Assembly (NCBI GenBank): GCA_016208165.1
Contig: JACQYL010000003.1
Span: 1-46,835, forward strand
Source: Deltaproteobacteria bacterium
GTDB taxonomy: Bacteria > Desulfobacterota > Desulfarculia > JACQYL01
Length of the DNA: 46,835 bases
Direction: 5' to 3'
The translations under genes were made by a program, and so were the position numbers. Position 1 is the first letter of the stretch; every line of letters begins with the position of its first letter. Shown in pieces: positions 3,201-14,801 of the stretch. Under the pieces are notes generated by a model. It saw nothing but the letters and a program-made list of their open reading frames with translations. It did not search any database and was not told the origin of the DNA.

Positions 3201-5789
3201 TCAGGCTTCATCCAATGCCTTACGGACCTTTTCAGCCAACGTTTGGTTTGAAAAAGGCTTCTGGATGAAGTGAACCCCTTCGTCCAGTACACCGCGATGA
3301 GCGATGACGTTGTCAGTGTATCCGGACATGTACAGCACCTTCAAAGAGGGCTGTTCGGAAGATAGTTTCTCGTACAGTTCCCTGCCGTTCAGTCCGGGCA
3401 TGACCACGTCGGTCAACAGCAAGTGCAACGGACCATGGTGCAATGCCAATGTCCCCTGCGCTTCCTCGCTGCTTTGCGCAGAAATGATCGTGTATCCCCG
3501 CCGCGTTAATACGGTCTCCGCCAACCGGCGGACCTGTTCATTATCCTCCACCAATAGAATGGTTTCGGAACCTTTTAAGTCCGTAGCCGCTTTCTTATCC
3601 GTATCTTCTTTAGCAGGCGCTTTTCCGGCAATGGGCAGGTAGATTTTGAAGGTTGTCCCATTGCCGGGTTCGCTGTAGACCCAGATGTTGCCTGCGTGTT
3701 GTTTGACAATGCCGTAGACCGTGGCAAGGCCCAGGCCGGTGCCTCGCTCCCCTTTCGTGGAAAAAAACGGCTCGAAAATCTGCTTTCGTGTCTCTTCATC
3801 CATACCATGTCCGGTGTCGCTGATGGCCAGCATGACATACTGCCCCGGCGACACGTCCGGATGCGTTTCCGCGTATGATTCGTCCAGGTCGGTAATGGTA
3901 GTTTCAATGGTCAGCGCGCCGCCGTCCCGCATGGCGTCGGCTGCATTGACGGCAAGATTCATGATCACCTGTTCCATCTGTCCGACATCCGCCATGACAG
4001 GCAGGACACCGGGTAAAGAAACAATCTTGATCACGATATCTTCGGGGATCGTGCGCCGCAACAGGCTCCGGAAACCTTCAATGGTCTCGTTGATATCCAC
4101 CGCTTTGAATTCCAAGGTCTGCTTGCGGCTGAAGGCGAGCAGCTGGCGCACAAGGTCCCGGGCACGGTTTCCCGCATTAAGAATTTCGTTCACCGATTCG
4201 CGCCGGTTATCGTTGCGACCCAGATCTTCCAACAACATATCGCTGTAGCCGAGGATGGGGGAAAGCAGATTGTTCAGATCATGCGCCACCCCCCCTGCCA
4301 ATCGACCCACCGATTCCATTTTCCGGGCTTGCACCAGCAGATCGTGTAGCTTATTCCGCGCCGCCTCCGCCTGCTTACGATTGGTGATGTCCTCGGTCAG
4401 GATCACGATTCCTCCCACCGAGTTGTCAGACTTGTACCAGGGACGGACTTCCCACAGCAGCCATTGGATGGTTCCGTCCATCCTCTTGAAACATTCCTCA
4501 TCCACTCGTGAAACCTCACCGTTCATCCCCCGGCGATGCACCTCTTTCCAGTGATCCGGAATCTCCGGAAAGACCTCGTAGTGGGATCGGCCGATGATGT
4601 CCCGGTTTCCAAGACGATAGTCTGAAATCCATCGGCTGCTGACGGCGAGGTAGCGCATCTCGCGGTCGAACATGGCTATGGCGGCCGGCGTATGCTTGAT
4701 GAGCAACCTCAGTTGTGCTTCACTCTCCTTCAACATCAGCTCAGCCTGCTTGCGTGGCGTGATGTCGCGGGCAATACCCAAAACGCCGGCTATCCGTCCT
4801 TCACGGTCGTAGATGGGCGCTTTAATGGTTTCCAATAATTCATGGTGCCCGTCGTCCGGGAACGTAATCTCTTCTTCGTTTACACATGGCTTGCCCGCAG
4901 CCATGGCCGCTCGATCTTTTTCCCTGAAGAAATCCGCCAGCTCCTTGTCCACGAAGTCATAATCCGTCTTGCCGACGATCTCGGCTTCTCGAGCGCCGAA
5001 GAAACGCTCAAACCTCGCATTACAGGACAGATATACCCCATCCGGGTCCTTCAACCAGACCAGATCGGGCAGTGTATCGATCAGTATGCGCAAGTGCATT
5101 TCGCTTTTCCGGAGCGCTTCCTGGGCCTGTCTTTTTGCCAGGAAGCCGGCGATAGAGTCTGCGACCCTGCGATACATGGCAATCAGATCCGGCGAGAAGC
5201 GTCCTTCGCGATGATCGTTGAGTTGTATCAGTCCGAAGGTCTCCCCGGCGGAACGCAAAGGGATAAGGGCGACGGATTCGTAGCCCGAACTGTTACACCG
5301 GTTGCGGGTGCGCGCCTGGCGGTCGGCATCGGTTGTAGTTGCAAGTAGTCTGGTCGTGCAATTGCTCCAGAAACTGCCGTCTGCGGTGAAAAAGTTTTTG
5401 GAGGGATCAAATCTTCCGCAAAGAATATTACCGCACATACACTCCAGAAGGGGGTTGCCGTCTCTGTCGCGCTCGACTTCACCATCCTCTTTATACGAGC
5501 AGAGATACCTCTCCATCTTAACAAACTCATCCGGAAATCCCGAAGTCACGAAATATGGAAAATCCGGCCCATCCTTGAGTCGTATAGCCACAGCCTCACA
5601 CCCCGACCAATGCTTCAGACGGTGCAGGATGCTCCCCAACAAATCATCCAGCCTTTCAGTCTCATTGATCAGCTGAAGGACCTCGAGAACCATCAGATGT
5701 TCCTTTTCAATGAGCCCACGCTCGAGTTCGGCTGATTCCAATTCTTGAACTCTTTTTTCCAGTTCTTCGTAGGTCGGCTTTTTGAGCAT
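3201..5789 (-). CDS. Hybrid histidine kinase, GAF-PAS-PAS-HisKA-HATPase-REC
   Basis: This is an 862-residue soluble hybrid sensor kinase. It starts with a short coiled coil (KKPTYEELEKRVQELE), then a GAF-like domain with several Cys (to about 230), two PAS domains (about 240-355 and 360-480), HisKA with H in G-G-V-A-H-D-L-N-N-L-L, a full HATPase (N-box, D-T-G-H-G-M, G-T-G-L-G-L) and a C-terminal receiver with D in L-T-D-V-V-M-P. There are no membrane segments, so it senses a cytoplasmic signal. The ATG at 5789 is preferred over 5795 and 5837 because AGGTGA sits five bases upstream. No output regulator is adjacent, so its target is unknown. Confidence 0.9.
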   Translation of the reverse strand: MLKKPTYEELEKRVQELESAELERGLIEKEHLMVLEVLQLINETERLDDLLGSILHRLKHWSGCEAVAIRLKDGPDFPYFVTSGFPDEFVKMERYLCSYKEDGEVERDRDGNPLLECMCGNILCGRFDPSKNFFTADGSFWSNCTTRLLATTTDADRQARTRNRCNSSGYESVALIPLRSAGETFGLIQLNDHREGRFSPDLIAMYRRVADSIAGFLAKRQAQEALRKSEMHLRILIDTLPDLVWLKDPDGVYLSCNARFERFFGAREAEIVGKTDYDFVDKELADFFREKDRAAMAAGKPCVNEEEITFPDDGHHELLETIKAPIYDREGRIAGVLGIARDITPRKQAELMLKESEAQLRLLIKHTPAAIAMFDREMRYLAVSSRWISDYRLGNRDIIGRSHYEVFPEIPDHWKEVHRRGMNGEVSRVDEECFKRMDGTIQWLLWEVRPWYKSDNSVGGIVILTEDITNRKQAEAARNKLHDLLVQARKMESVGRLAGGVAHDLNNLLSPILGYSDMLLEDLGRNDNRRESVNEILNAGNRARDLVRQLLAFSRKQTLEFKAVDINETIEGFRSLLRRTIPEDIVIKIVSLPGVLPVMADVGQMEQVIMNLAVNAADAMRDGGALTIETTITDLDESYAETHPDVSPGQYVMLAISDTGHGMDEETRKQIFEPFFSTKGERGTGLGLATVYGIVKQHAGNIWVYSEPGNGTTFKIYLPIAGKAPAKEDTDKKAATDLKGSETILLVEDNEQVRRLAETVLTRRGYTIISAQSSEEAQGTLALHHGPLHLLLTDVVMPGLNGRELYEKLSSEQPSLKVLYMSGYTDNVIAHRGVLDEGVHFIQKPFSNQTLAEKVRKALDEA

Positions 5790-5965
5790 GATCATCACCT
5801 GTGTTTCCGGGATCGAGCCGAGTTGAACATTCTGCATCTATGCCTGAAACCAGTCCCGGTCGATAGTACCCGATGAATTCTTCAATGACCGGCAAACGCC
5901 TTGAAGGCGCCGCGCGCCCCGAACTCAACCCGGAGAGGTGGAAACCGGAGAGGCCGAGGTTTGCC

Positions 5966-5993
5966 AGTATATCAAAAGTTGGCCCAAAAACAA
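5966..5993 (-). promoter_or_regulatory. Candidate sigma-70 promoter for the hybrid kinase
   Basis: Reading the minus strand, TTGTTT (5993-5988) and TATACT (5971-5966) are 16 bases apart, giving a start near 5960 and a leader of about 170 bases. It follows directly after the candidate terminator of the upstream short transcript. Confidence 0.4.
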
Positions 5994-6016
5994 AATACAG
6001 GAGCGCTCCGCGCCTC
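5986..6016 (-). terminator. Candidate intrinsic terminator
   Basis: On the minus strand a short GC-rich hairpin (GCGC-GGA-GCGC, extended by two pairs around a bulged G, 6016-6001) is followed by a U-rich tail (5997-5986, ten T of twelve). It would end transcription from the sigma-54 promoter at 6214-6230. The stem is short, so confidence is modest. Confidence 0.35.
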
Positions 6017-6204
6017 TCGCCGAGTTCACATTAGATCGGATCGGAACCTCGACGCCGGTGGACGGTAGTGAAGGCCGAGTCTGATAATCCTCCAATGCCG
6101 GTCCGCGGATTGCAGGCCGCCCCTAGCGGGAATCCGTCATGAGGCGCCGGAATGGACAAGCGCTACATGCGTGAAACTCGCGAAGGATTGTAGCTTTTCG
6201 CAGT
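5986..6204 (-). ncRNA. Candidate sigma-54-dependent small RNA, about 220 nt
   Basis: This stretch is bounded by a strong -24/-12 promoter (predicted start about 6204) and a candidate terminator (5986-6016). It holds no plausible reading frame: its ATGs are followed almost at once by stops. The downstream kinase has its own candidate promoter after the terminator. The simplest reading is a short non-coding RNA; the alternative is a long regulated leader of the kinase message. Rests on signals only. Confidence 0.3.
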
Positions 6205-6213
6205 AGAAACCAA

Positions 6214-6230
6214 GTGCAGTTTGTGTGCCA
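6214..6230 (-). promoter_or_regulatory. Sigma-54 (-24/-12) promoter
   Basis: On the minus strand the sequence TGGCACACAAACTGCA has the invariant GG (6229-6228) and GC (6217-6216) exactly ten bases apart, and TGGCAC matches the -24 consensus fully. The predicted start is about 6204. The enhancer-like sites at 6302-6346 lie about 100-140 bases upstream, a normal enhancer distance. Confidence 0.6.
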
Positions 6231-6301
6231 TTTGCAGTATCCGATTAATTTTACTTGGATTCTTCATTTGTGGGCCGAGACGGATTCCTGCATATTGCCC
6301 C

Positions 6302-6346
6302 AAAATTGAGCAGCAGCCCTCCGCAGGTTGCTCAATTTTTGAGCAA
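6302..6346. promoter_or_regulatory. Triple TTGAGCA half-site, putative enhancer
   Basis: TTGCTCAA (6328-6335) and TTGAGCAA (6339-6346) form a perfect inverted repeat with a three-base centre. A third half-site (AAAATTGAGCA, 6302-6312) forms an 11-base inverted repeat with 6329-6339. A weaker half-site (GCTCAA) follows at 6358-6363. The position relative to the -24/-12 promoter fits an upstream activator site for a bacterial enhancer-binding protein. A hairpin in RNA is also possible. Confidence 0.5.
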
Positions 6347-6695
6347 TCCATTTATGCCGCTCAACGGGCATGCCGACGTTGTTGCGTGAGTTGCTACGGG
6401 ACTTGGGGGGCGGGCCGCCGTGTTTCGTTTACTGGAATGAGCGCCGTTGAACATCCGAGGAAACGGGGCGGGGCACGCTGTCTAGTGGAAGGCTTGAGGC
6501 GAAATTGAGGCGGTCATCCGCGTGTTGCATCGGCTTTAGGGTTCCGCCGCTCTCGAACAGGCTTCGATCGGCCTATTCCCTTTTGTTTTCTTTCCCGCAC
6601 ACCCGTCCGCAACGGCGGCATTGAAGGCATCGTGGGGGAATCGGACGATCATTGGAACACGCATGGGTGCGACTCCTCTCAAGACACAGATCGTG
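6347..6695. other. Intergenic, no supported gene
   Basis: Between the enhancer-like repeats and the end of the cytochrome c gene I see no reading frame with a ribosome site and no recognisable protein or RNA. The short frames on both strands look like chance. Confidence 0.5.
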
Positions 6696-7064
6696 TCACA
6701 GGGTTCCGAGATAGGCAATCAACTGGTCCCTTTCTTCGTCGTTAAGACGATCGGCATAAGAAGGCATGTTCTTGTATGGCGTTTTGAGCTGCTTTGTTAC
6801 ATTCTCTTCCGTCGCCTCTCTACCGCTCGCCGGCAGCGTGTCCCGCTTAAAGAGACCTTTCAGGCCGGGACCGATCTTGGCTTCTTCGCTGTCGGTAACA
6901 TGACAATGCGCGCATCCTTCGCTTGCAAACAATTGCGAGCCTTGCTTGGCCGCCGGATCGTCCGGATGCATGGCAAAGGATCGCACCAGGGCGAACAAGA
7001 CCGCCACGCAGACAAGCGTGACCCACACCGCAACGGAAGCCTGATTCAGGTGGGTTTTCCTCAT
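6696..7064 (-). CDS. Membrane-anchored class I cytochrome c
   Basis: This 122-residue protein has an uncleaved N-terminal anchor (about residues 10-30) and one periplasmic cytochrome c domain. The heme site is C-A-H-C-H (51-55) and the probable axial Met is Met100 in N-M-P-S-Y-A. It would carry electrons on the outer face of the inner membrane. It is the last gene of an operon, 14 bases after the ferric-reductase-like gene, with GGGAGG upstream of the ATG. The neighbour suggests it either feeds or accepts electrons from that flavocytochrome; direction and partner are inferred. Confidence 0.9.
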   Translation of the reverse strand: MRKTHLNQASVAVWVTLVCVAVLFALVRSFAMHPDDPAAKQGSQLFASEGCAHCHVTDSEEAKIGPGLKGLFKRDTLPASGREATEENVTKQLKTPYKNMPSYADRLNDEERDQLIAYLGTL

Positions 7065-10950: not shown

Positions 10951-12327
10951 TTAATCCGGCAACTCTCGGGCTTTCTGACTGCTTGCGTTGAAGTCGAGGC
11001 GCTTAAAGGAAGCCACGGCTTCCCGCACGGCCATGTCTTGCTTTTCATTCCTGGGCTCGGGAAACCGCTTCAATAGCCTCTGTATCGCCATGGCCGCCTG
11101 CACCGCACTCCGGCTCTTGTCCGGGGTGGTAACGAGCACGCCATGGTTCCCCCCTTCGGCCCAGAGAGGAATGACGGCCACATTGCTCCCGCTGTCAAGA
11201 AAAAGGGACCGGTTCTCCTTGTCCGGCCTGAAGGTGGCATGCGAGAAGTCGGCGAAGCGCGGATCGGCATTCATCACTCTGACGGTGCCGGAACCTTCCC
11301 GGACCTCGGGATCGACCTTCAGGACCAGTATGCCCGAATCCGGCAACATGCGATCGAAGCCCAGGGTTTGACGGTTTTCCACCAGGTAATAGCGGCCTTG
11401 CGGAAGCGGAATCTTAACGACAAGGGTACCGCCCTTCTTGGCCAGCGGAGACAGAAAGGCGTATCGGGTATCGCCGGGTTGGACCAAGACCGCCTGCTCG
11501 GGGGAGATCCAGCCCAATCTGATTTTGGTAAAGGAAGAGATGCCGGGAGGCGGCTCCTTTCTGTCAACCAGGTGCTGGGACATGATGTCCCAAGGGCCCA
11601 TGTAGATGGCGTGATGTTCGAAGCTGGGAAGGTGCGAAGCGTCAGACTGACGCTCGAAGTCGTACAGTCAGGGGACAAGCCGTCGTTTTCCGTCAATCCC
11701 TCCGAGCGCGTGGAAGAAATCATGGGCGAACATGCCCAAATGTGCGTTCTCGGTTCCGACGAACACTCCGCCCTGAAACGCTTTCTTGTTCTTGGATTCC
11801 AGTTTGACGTAAGCAACGTCCCCTCGAACGCCGGACAACATGCCCGGATTGGCGCAATAACAGATCATGCCATAGCCTTTTCCGGGCTGTGTGAGGGCAC
11901 AGGGGATAATGAGCATGTGCTCGTAGTTTGAAAAATCCACATCTTTCTCAAGGGCCGTCATGGTGTCCTCGGCGAGTTTCCTTACTCTTGTCCTGTCAAC
12001 CTGGAAGTTGTAGGGACTTATTTTGTATGCCGAGATCGGGTCGGGGAGCATGACCCGTCCTCTGAAGTCGGCATTTACCCAGGTCAGGCCGTAGGACTGT
12101 TCCGATACGTATCGGCTCAGACCCGCCACGGCTTTCTGTTTTATCTGATCGAGAGAGAGCGCCGGCTCGACGTCCGGGAAGCTGACCGCCACCATGAGGA
12201 CGCGCTGTTCTCCCCTTGCCCGGACGGATTGCGGCCCCAGAAGGCTCTGTTCACGGGGGCTCTCGATCCCGGGGCCCTGGCACCCCGCAATCGACGAGAG
12301 AAAAACAGCGAACAATAGACACCTCAT
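10951..12327 (-). CDS. M6-like metalloprotease lipoprotein with in-frame UGA (candidate selenoprotein)
   Basis: The frame runs 458 residues if the single in-frame TGA at 11670-11668 (codon 220) is read through. The N-terminus is a lipoprotein signal with lipobox S-I-A-G-C (Cys16). A metalloprotease-like H-D-F-F-H (202-206, D in place of the usual E) lies just before the TGA. Right after it come L-Y-D-F-E and then M-G-P-W-D-I-M-S, the M6 (immune inhibitor A) Met-turn region. Protein-like sequence thus continues unbroken in the same frame for 238 codons. A hairpin resembling a bacterial SECIS sits 20 bases after the TGA, so selenocysteine is possible; a nonsense mutation is the alternative. GAGG lies nine bases before the ATG; an upstream ATG at 12357 is also possible. 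Confidence 0.65.
11637..11655 (-). promoter_or_regulatory. Putative bacterial SECIS hairpin
   Basis: On the minus strand an eight-pair stem (11655-11648 with 11644-11637, outermost pair G-U) closes on the three-base loop GUC. The loop starts 21 bases after the in-frame UGA (20 intervening bases), begins with GU, and the top of the hairpin (UCAGUCUGA) looks much like the E. coli fdhF element (GCAGGUCUGC). It lies within the coding frame, as bacterial SECIS elements do. Confidence 0.45.
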
Positions 12328-12638: not shown

Positions 12639-14801
12639 TTAGGAACCTTCCGTCAGAATGCCGTCTTGAATACGGAACACCCTATCCGTGAAAAGGGGCG
12701 CCAGCGAGAAGAAGTCCTCGTAGAAGCTTTCCCGCACGAACTCGGTGGGAACCACATGGTACGTGGCTTCCAGAGCGTCCGGACCGGCTTCGAGTACTAC
12801 GTAGCCGTTATCCACAAGATTAGCCCAAAGGAGCGCCGACGGCCGGGTGAAAGGATTGGTCACCGCGGAGAGCCCTAACAGGGATCCCAAGAGAGCGATG
12901 GAATCCTCCGGCGCCTCGAATCCGAGATCGCCGATGGTGCGTCCGGCGAAATCCTGGAATGTTCCCGAAGACACCGCCGGCCCGGTGAACTCGTGTACCC
13001 TGTACGGCCCTCGATCCCCGTGATCCGTCACAAAGGACGCATGGATGTCCCCGGATAGAAGCACCAGGCCGGGCACCGTGCTCAGATAGTTCAGAATGTC
13101 CTGTTTCTTCACAGGAAACCCGTCCCATTGGTCCGCGTTAATGAGGATGCGGGCCTTGAAGTCCTCCGGGAAGTCCGGCGGAAGGAAGGGTTGAATGAGC
13201 CCGATGCTAAAGTCCGCCACCAGGGGCGCCAGGGAGGTCGAACTGGTAACCGCCTTCCACGTGGCCGTGCTGGTGTCCAATACGCTCCTGAGCCAGGCTT
13301 CCTGGGCCGCGCCGAACACATCGTCCGCGCTCGGGTCTATGCTTCGAAGATAAGTGGCATATAGCTCAAACACGTCCTGAAAGATACCGTATCGGGATCC
13401 TATATCCGAGTAGAGGCTTCGCTTGCCCAGCGTATAGAAAGCCACGCCGCGAGGCAGCGACGACAGGGCGCCCGAGTCCAAAGGCGCGGGGAATCCCTCC
13501 GATTCGAACACCGAATTGATGTACCGTGCGTTCAGGTCCCCCGCCACCACTTCCCGGGCTTTGGCCGCGGCCTGTTCTCCGGACAGGTATGGATTCTCCT
13601 GATCATAGCGCATGGCCACAATGGACACCAGGACCGCCTTGGTGTCTTCGAACCCCTCGGCATCAATGGAAACGTACGAGTCCAGAAGCGGTTCGTACTC
13701 CGCGTACGCGTCGCCAAGGGCCGCTCGGCATGCTGCGTTGTCCATGACCACCGTACCCGGAAATGCGTCCTCCGGAATGAGGTGATCGGGACGATAGGTC
13801 CTGTAGTCCGTCAAAACCAGATCGAGGTGCGCGCCGAAGCGAAAGCTCCTGTATATGCGCGTGTTGGGATAGAGGATCTCTTCCGTGATCTCGAGATCTC
13901 CCTGCCCGTTCAGGCCGATCTCGCAGGGCACATACTCGAAAAAGGCCCTCTCGGACGCTCTTTTCCTCTGCAGATCCCGCCCGTCCACGCGGCCGCCGAA
14001 ATACGTGGCCGTGTCCTGCCAACTGTCGTTGGAGAACTCGTGGTCGTCCCAGATCACGACCATGGGGAACCGCTCGTGTATGCGTTGCAACATGGGATCG
14101 GAACGATAGGTCTTGTACAGATCGCGGTAGTTGGAGAGGGTCGCGGCGGCCAGCAGCGTGCCATCCGTTTCCTCCAGCACGACGGCTCCTTCCGGGTCCT
14201 CGAATCGAACCACGCGCGCTCCCTCGGTCGTGTCCAAAGAAGAGGCGGGCGTGCTCTCGTACACATAGTCACCGGAATGTACCAGGAAATCCAGATCGTT
14301 GGACGGGCTATCGTACGTGTGCAGCAAATGCGTGAAGCTGTTGTAGTACCGGTGCACGTAGTCCTGGCACGAAAATAAGGCCCACCGCACCGGCACGTCC
14401 GCGTCGGGCTCGGGAGCGGTCTTGGTCCTTCCGATCTTCGAGGAGACCCCGTTGCTGGTGAAGCGATAGTAGTAGAAGGCGCCGGGAGAAAGGCCCGATA
14501 CGCTCACTTTGACGCAGTGGTCGTACTCCGCTTTGGCAACCAAGCCCCGGATCTGAACCACGTCCGCCATGTGTTCATCCGCAGCCACAGTGAGGGTCAC
14601 CGCAAGGTCCCGATCCGGCAGGCCGGTGTCCAAAACCCGTGTCCACACGACAACGCTGTGAGCGCGCGGGTCCCCTGACGCCACGGACTGCGGAAAGCTC
14701 ACTTCCGTCGGTTCAGACGCAGGGGTCGTATCGGAACCGCATGCGGAGAGTCCTGAAATCAGTCCTAGGATCACTAGGGTGAGAAGCGTCTTTTTCATCA
14801 T
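12639..14801 (-). CDS. phoD: PhoD family alkaline phosphatase lipoprotein
   Basis: This is a 720-residue exported phosphoesterase. Lipobox L-S-A-C (Cys21) predicts a lipoprotein. Residues 33-130 form the Fe3+/purple-acid-type beta domain typical of PhoD. The metal site motifs are F-S-C-Q-D-Y (143-148), H-S-G-D-Y-V-Y-E (175-182), W-D-D-H-E-F-S-N-D (251-259) and, near residue 590, S-G-D-I-H. PhoD enzymes use Fe and Ca to cleave phosphodiesters and monoesters in the periplasm. It is longer than Bacillus PhoD because of inserts after residue 180 and in the middle. GGAGG lies four bases before the ATG; a second ATG follows directly. No Pho box was recognised. Confidence 0.9.
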   Translation of the reverse strand: MMKKTLLTLVILGLISGLSACGSDTTPASEPTEVSFPQSVASGDPRAHSVVVWTRVLDTGLPDRDLAVTLTVAADEHMADVVQIRGLVAKAEYDHCVKVSVSGLSPGAFYYYRFTSNGVSSKIGRTKTAPEPDADVPVRWALFSCQDYVHRYYNSFTHLLHTYDSPSNDLDFLVHSGDYVYESTPASSLDTTEGARVVRFEDPEGAVVLEETDGTLLAAATLSNYRDLYKTYRSDPMLQRIHERFPMVVIWDDHEFSNDSWQDTATYFGGRVDGRDLQRKRASERAFFEYVPCEIGLNGQGDLEITEEILYPNTRIYRSFRFGAHLDLVLTDYRTYRPDHLIPEDAFPGTVVMDNAACRAALGDAYAEYEPLLDSYVSIDAEGFEDTKAVLVSIVAMRYDQENPYLSGEQAAAKAREVVAGDLNARYINSVFESEGFPAPLDSGALSSLPRGVAFYTLGKRSLYSDIGSRYGIFQDVFELYATYLRSIDPSADDVFGAAQEAWLRSVLDTSTATWKAVTSSTSLAPLVADFSIGLIQPFLPPDFPEDFKARILINADQWDGFPVKKQDILNYLSTVPGLVLLSGDIHASFVTDHGDRGPYRVHEFTGPAVSSGTFQDFAGRTIGDLGFEAPEDSIALLGSLLGLSAVTNPFTRPSALLWANLVDNGYVVLEAGPDALEATYHVVPTEFVRESFYEDFFSLAPLFTDRVFRIQDGILTEGS

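Follow-up and report, generated by a model that had tools for sequence, protein, structure and literature searches.

A UGA codon probably read as selenocysteine in a family of M6-like, predicted exported proteins

Genomic organization of the locus

The gene described here lies on the minus strand of a 46,835-nucleotide stretch of deltaproteobacterial DNA (the window), where reading from 12327 to 10951 gives 219 codons, a single TGA, 238 further codons and then TAA. The initial annotation had reported one TGA, at codon 220, in an otherwise open frame, and this was confirmed; it gave no strand for this frame, which is real but belongs to the minus strand, the plus strand of 10951-12327 containing several stops. 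A second in-frame ATG located ten codons upstream (12357) could also serve as the start. The features of the gene, in the order of translation, are as follows:

10951-12327, minus strand: read-through gene of 458 amino acids with selenocysteine (Sec) proposed at 220; homologues align over almost the full length
12271-12327, minus strand: putative N-terminal export signal with a lipobox-like IAGC, read from the sequence
11854-11862, minus strand: CYC (residues 156-158), a possible thiol partner of Sec, not universal in the family alignment
11710-11724, minus strand: HDFFH (residues 202-206), counterpart of the M6 HExxH, pairing with HEFMH of the canonical M6 protein L029
11668-11670, minus strand: in-frame TGA, codon 220 of 458, proposed Sec codon, placed in a column of 29 members
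11637-11655, minus strand: SECIS-like hairpin GAGCGUCA-GUC-UGACGCUU, loop at 11645-11647, with frozen codons and one compensatory change
11578-11604, minus strand: YMGPWDIMS (residues 242-250), counterpart of the metzincin Met-turn (YMGPWDIMD in L029)

The IAGC signal suggests a putative lipoprotein, and other family members carry plain signal-like N-termini, likewise read from the sequence. The gene is flanked in the window by genes encoding a PhoD-like phosphatase, a MASE3 histidine kinase and a ferric-reductase-like protein, and no conserved neighbour was found between the homologue loci. For instance, the PhoD-like phosphatase (PF09423, E 6.7e-62), which is the upstream neighbour at 12642-14801 of the window (minus strand), is not conserved beside homologues. 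Annotation pipelines would turn genes of this kind into two pieces.

Distribution of the family and variation at position 220

Relatives of the window protein were obtained from a scan of genome contigs, which contributed 14, and from genome searches, which contributed more; 29 members, the window included, were readable at site 220. The first 28 share one column of one alignment, and L061, added later, aligns at the same place. The site is occupied by TGA (13), Cys (13) or Asp (3) and by nothing else, with Trp, Arg and Gln absent from all 29 family members; the Cys that the initial annotation had named as the residue to look for in homologues is thus present. The members are distributed as follows:

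TGA forms: window, L016, L017, L018, L021-L026, L052, L055, L061
Cys forms, close: L019, L020, L051, L053, L054
Cys forms, distant clade: L010, L011, L014, L057-L060, L062
Asp forms: L027, L028, L056

This interchange of Sec, Cys and Asp can be read directly from the sequences. On the tree, at least six to seven changes between TGA and the other states are required, three to four of them forced by well-supported branches; the 13 TGA cases do not represent 13 independent events, because L017, L018 and L025 are mutually close. L061 (G390:C42, complement of 5625-6914) is a second, divergent Sec form whose nearest relative, L056, carries Asp; the two are sisters with a support of 100/100, and the Asp-to-Sec case consists of this one gene. 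When viral contigs were searched, no relative was found, and plasmids gave distant matches only (26-31%).

The variation at this column bears on the possibility that UGA is decoded as another residue (Trp, or one brought by a suppressor) or acts as a regulated stop yielding short and long forms. DNA alone cannot separate readthrough from Sec insertion, but the absence of Trp, Arg and Gln from the site in all homologues and the alternation of Cys and TGA on the tree, where well-supported branches force no fewer than three changes, make this explanation very improbable. Furthermore, the final stop is also TGA in L016, L017, L024, L025, L026 and L055, all of them TGA members, so that UGA has not been reassigned genome-wide in these six.

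Both halves of the gene are under purifying selection, with dN/dS after the TGA of approximately 0.09-0.23 (nine pairs). The segment LYDFERQSDAS, directly after the TGA, is also present in full-length Cys proteins, and a separate downstream gene starting from a later Met is therefore unlikely. A pseudogene, a sequencing error or a true stop, that is, a point mutation splitting the gene, would be compatible with a lone TGA in an otherwise open frame and with the damaged selA gene of the assembly described below. However, 12 further members, spread over many genomes, have the same TGA, and to the selection on both halves is added the freezing of the hairpin codons, so that the comparative sequence data in practice already refute this explanation, to which we assign next to no probability. 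Taken as a coding sequence, the seemingly broken gene very probably yields a whole exported protein with Sec at position 220.

Selenocysteine machinery and signals for UGA recoding

The initial annotation had proposed looking for selA, selB, selC and selD, and the window's genome holds all of them: selB, the tRNA-Sec gene (selC, anticodon tca), selD and selA, the last damaged in the assembly. This selA (L042, G000:C48:84608-85842) is read in two frames with about 49 model positions missing between them, an internal deletion that is possibly an assembly fault, real damage being the alternative; selA is intact in the related Sec-form genomes. Among the 12 other TGA-form genomes, selB was over the cut-off in 12/12, and selA was found in all except that of L021. 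Since 184 of 198 genomes sampled from the phylum contain selA, and since both selA and selB occur in most genomes with Cys or Asp forms, the presence of the machinery was rejected as a discriminating test and is treated as a matter of consistency only. The selD gene (L044, G000:C58) contains a short run of N near the N-terminus, where a Sec in SelD itself is unreadable.

Regarding the hairpin, both elements described in the initial annotation, namely a GUC loop starting 20 nt after the UGA and a stem of eight pairs, were verified, one of the pairs being G-U. The top of the hairpin may resemble that of E. coli fdhF. Hairpin strength alone was rejected as evidence: equally long stems stand at a permitted distance behind 5.4% of the window's TGA triplets, and the folding energy is ordinary (z -0.88).

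The codons that form the hairpin were compared in all TGA genes but L061, which leaves 12. Codons +6 (CGT), +7 (CAG) and +9 (GAC) were the same in 12/12, codons +5 (GAG), +8 (TCT) and +10 (GCT) were invariant wherever the residue is shared, and codon +1 was CTG in 12/12. For pairs of genes sharing the residue, the same-codon frequency at the hairpin codons was 1.00, where codon use would predict 0.19-0.52, and the segment from +5 to +11 ranked top among the 86 windows of this synonymous-freeze test. In contrast, the close Cys genes vary at these codons, using CGT, CGA or CGG for Arg and TCT, TCC or TCG for Ser. The recurrence of TGA in the column (13 members), together with a codon freeze restricted to the TGA genes, is far above chance.

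Individual members illustrate how the hairpin varies. In L022, one stem pair is changed from G-C to U-A with both sides altered, a compensatory change. The count of covarying pairs was discarded as evidence, since this single compensated pair is not above shuffles (110/500); covariation is too sparse for significance because five of the eight pairs never vary. The loop of L055 is GGC on an intact stem, whereas L061 has a different protein sequence and a different stem in this region; its loop, 27 bases beyond the UGA, is GUC as in the window gene. In L019, a Cys form with TGT at 1503, the SECIS-like hairpin is still intact, as if Sec had recently been exchanged for Cys.

Considering this recoding pattern, which is carried by the sequences themselves, Sec is almost certainly inserted at UGA codon 220. 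The codon would be read by SelB and tRNA-Sec under the direction of the downstream hairpin.

Predicted fold and relationship to M6 peptidases

The initial annotation had called the product an M6-like metalloprotease, of which the M6 likeness was upheld by both profile and fold. The TIGR03296 profile (M6 domain) matches 16/16 members scanned, the window protein scoring 67.5 bits (E 2.6e-18), below the curated cut-off of 110.8, and the AlphaFold model (pLDDT 84.9, with Sec entered as Cys) matches immune inhibitor A (PDB 4yu5) with a Z of 25.3 and an rmsd of 2.7 Å over 330 residues, the next entries having a Z of about 10. A Pfam search with the window protein gave no match. The M6 peptidases, which we take to be the thuringilysins (immune inhibitor A, PrtV; TIGR03296, PF05547), have in common with the window family the fold, two metal-type His residues, the Met-turn YMGPWDIM and PxLYD.

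The metalloprotease part of the assignment is less well borne out. While the M6 peptidases have HExxH and an Asp as third ligand, the window family has HDxxH and Sec or Cys, with eight extra residues between the G and PxLYD, and the window protein scores under the TIGR03296 cut-off; the HExxHxxGxxD metal motif of the M6 peptidases is accordingly absent as such. H202, D203 and H206 are invariant (16 sequences), with Asp in place of the catalytic Glu. Because this invariant HDxxH replaces HExxH, peptidase activity is at most a possibility, and on its sequence the product is an M6-like protein and a candidate rather than a demonstrated peptidase. The exchange of the general-base Glu for Asp may indicate a modified hydrolase, or a metal-sensitive or redox-sensitive protein that is not a peptidase; it may also mean that a catalytic metal is absent.

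When four canonical M6 proteins were aligned with the family by profile, Sec220 paired with the Asp of PDLY (HExxHxxGxPDLYD). The initial annotation had correctly located Sec near the metal site, three residues before the conserved Asp of PxLYD; more exactly, it falls on the first Asp of PDLYD, the third-ligand position. In metzincins, His serves as the third zinc ligand, with Asp in rare cases such as the snapalysins and thuringilysins (PMC12237041). Given that this Asp is the ligand in thuringilysins, its pairing with Sec220 would place Sec on a metal-ligand position. The eight-residue insertion counts against a ligand role. D212, which fits the HxxxHxxGxxD spacing, was considered as the third ligand and rejected, as it is not conserved.

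Proposed role of the selenocysteine

The gene product would be an exported M6-like protein of the metzincin fold with Sec220 at the third-ligand position, where a metal site made up of His202, His206 and the selenolate of Sec220 would result. We infer that Sec binds metal, as we do the identity of that metal and the reaction, and Sec220 is rather likely to be a metal ligand in an M6-like metal site. Sec, Cys and Asp are all possible ligands, and their occurrence at one site therefore fits this role.

Alternatively, Sec could be inserted but serve a redox function, forming a selenenyl-sulfide with CYC or with a partner protein next to a vestigial metal site. Most close members retain CYC, the catalytic Glu is missing from HDxxH in every member, and a redox role is assumed for the majority of the selenoproteins known (review PMC13188914). 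Nevertheless, three members bear Asp at the site and are incapable of a redox pair; in two of them, L027 and L028, CYC is intact although a Sec/Cys pair involving the site is impossible. Conversely, one CYC Cys is lost in the Sec form L061, which retains one, none is present in L056 (Asp), and most of the distant Cys clade is down to one. Moreover, the Sec site coincides with the position of a metal ligand. We consider the redox function unlikely, and the ligand role is favoured over a redox pair because of the interchange of Sec, Cys and Asp, which extends to a Sec gene with an Asp form as its closest relative.

The broader reading of the ligand role, in which Sec replaced Asp as the third ligand in a metzincin fold and gave rise, more than once, to a hydrolase-type selenoprotein with a His-His-Sec site, seems to us evenly poised between right and wrong. 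Sec lies at a place in the structure that serves relatives for holding a metal rather than for redox chemistry, and the members with Sec, Cys or Asp at this one residue offer a natural comparison of the gain from selenium over sulfur and oxygen as metal ligands.

Comparison with known selenoproteins and metalloenzymes

The window family has in common with bacterial selenoprotein families the alternation of Sec and Cys, the hairpin after the UGA and the Sec machinery, and differs from them in being without a UxxC or CxxU motif. In peptide deformylase, the metal is held by a Cys and the two His of the HExxH helix; this enzyme provides an analogy with an unrelated fold and with Cys instead of Sec. 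A direct Sec-metal bond, as proposed here, is known from formate dehydrogenase and NiFeSe hydrogenase (PMC13188914), which are redox enzymes containing Mo/W or Ni, in contrast to the zincin fold of the window family. With such a fold, the metal in the window protein is expected to be Zn or Fe.

The designation as a candidate new selenoprotein, made in the initial annotation, agrees with the catalogues compared: tables of 87 families (PMC9312934) and 119 families (PMC13188914) contain no M6 or other metallopeptidase-type selenoprotein, and none of the NCBIfam selenoprotein models matches family members. The literature searches found no selenoprotein metalloprotease, an unpublished GenBank annotation being possible. 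The selenoprotein family is absent from the published lists compared, to which it would be an addition; the sole protease-type entry in the 2022 selenoprotein table is a predicted trypsin-like serine protease.

Two further loci of the Cys type were recorded. One homologue is matched in two overlapping frames (L011 and L015, G053:C529:19977-21042), which suggests a frameshift near query residue 250. The window's genome itself bears a distant Cys paralogue (L014/L031, G000:C62:37232-38329) with the Met-turn DPMSCH.
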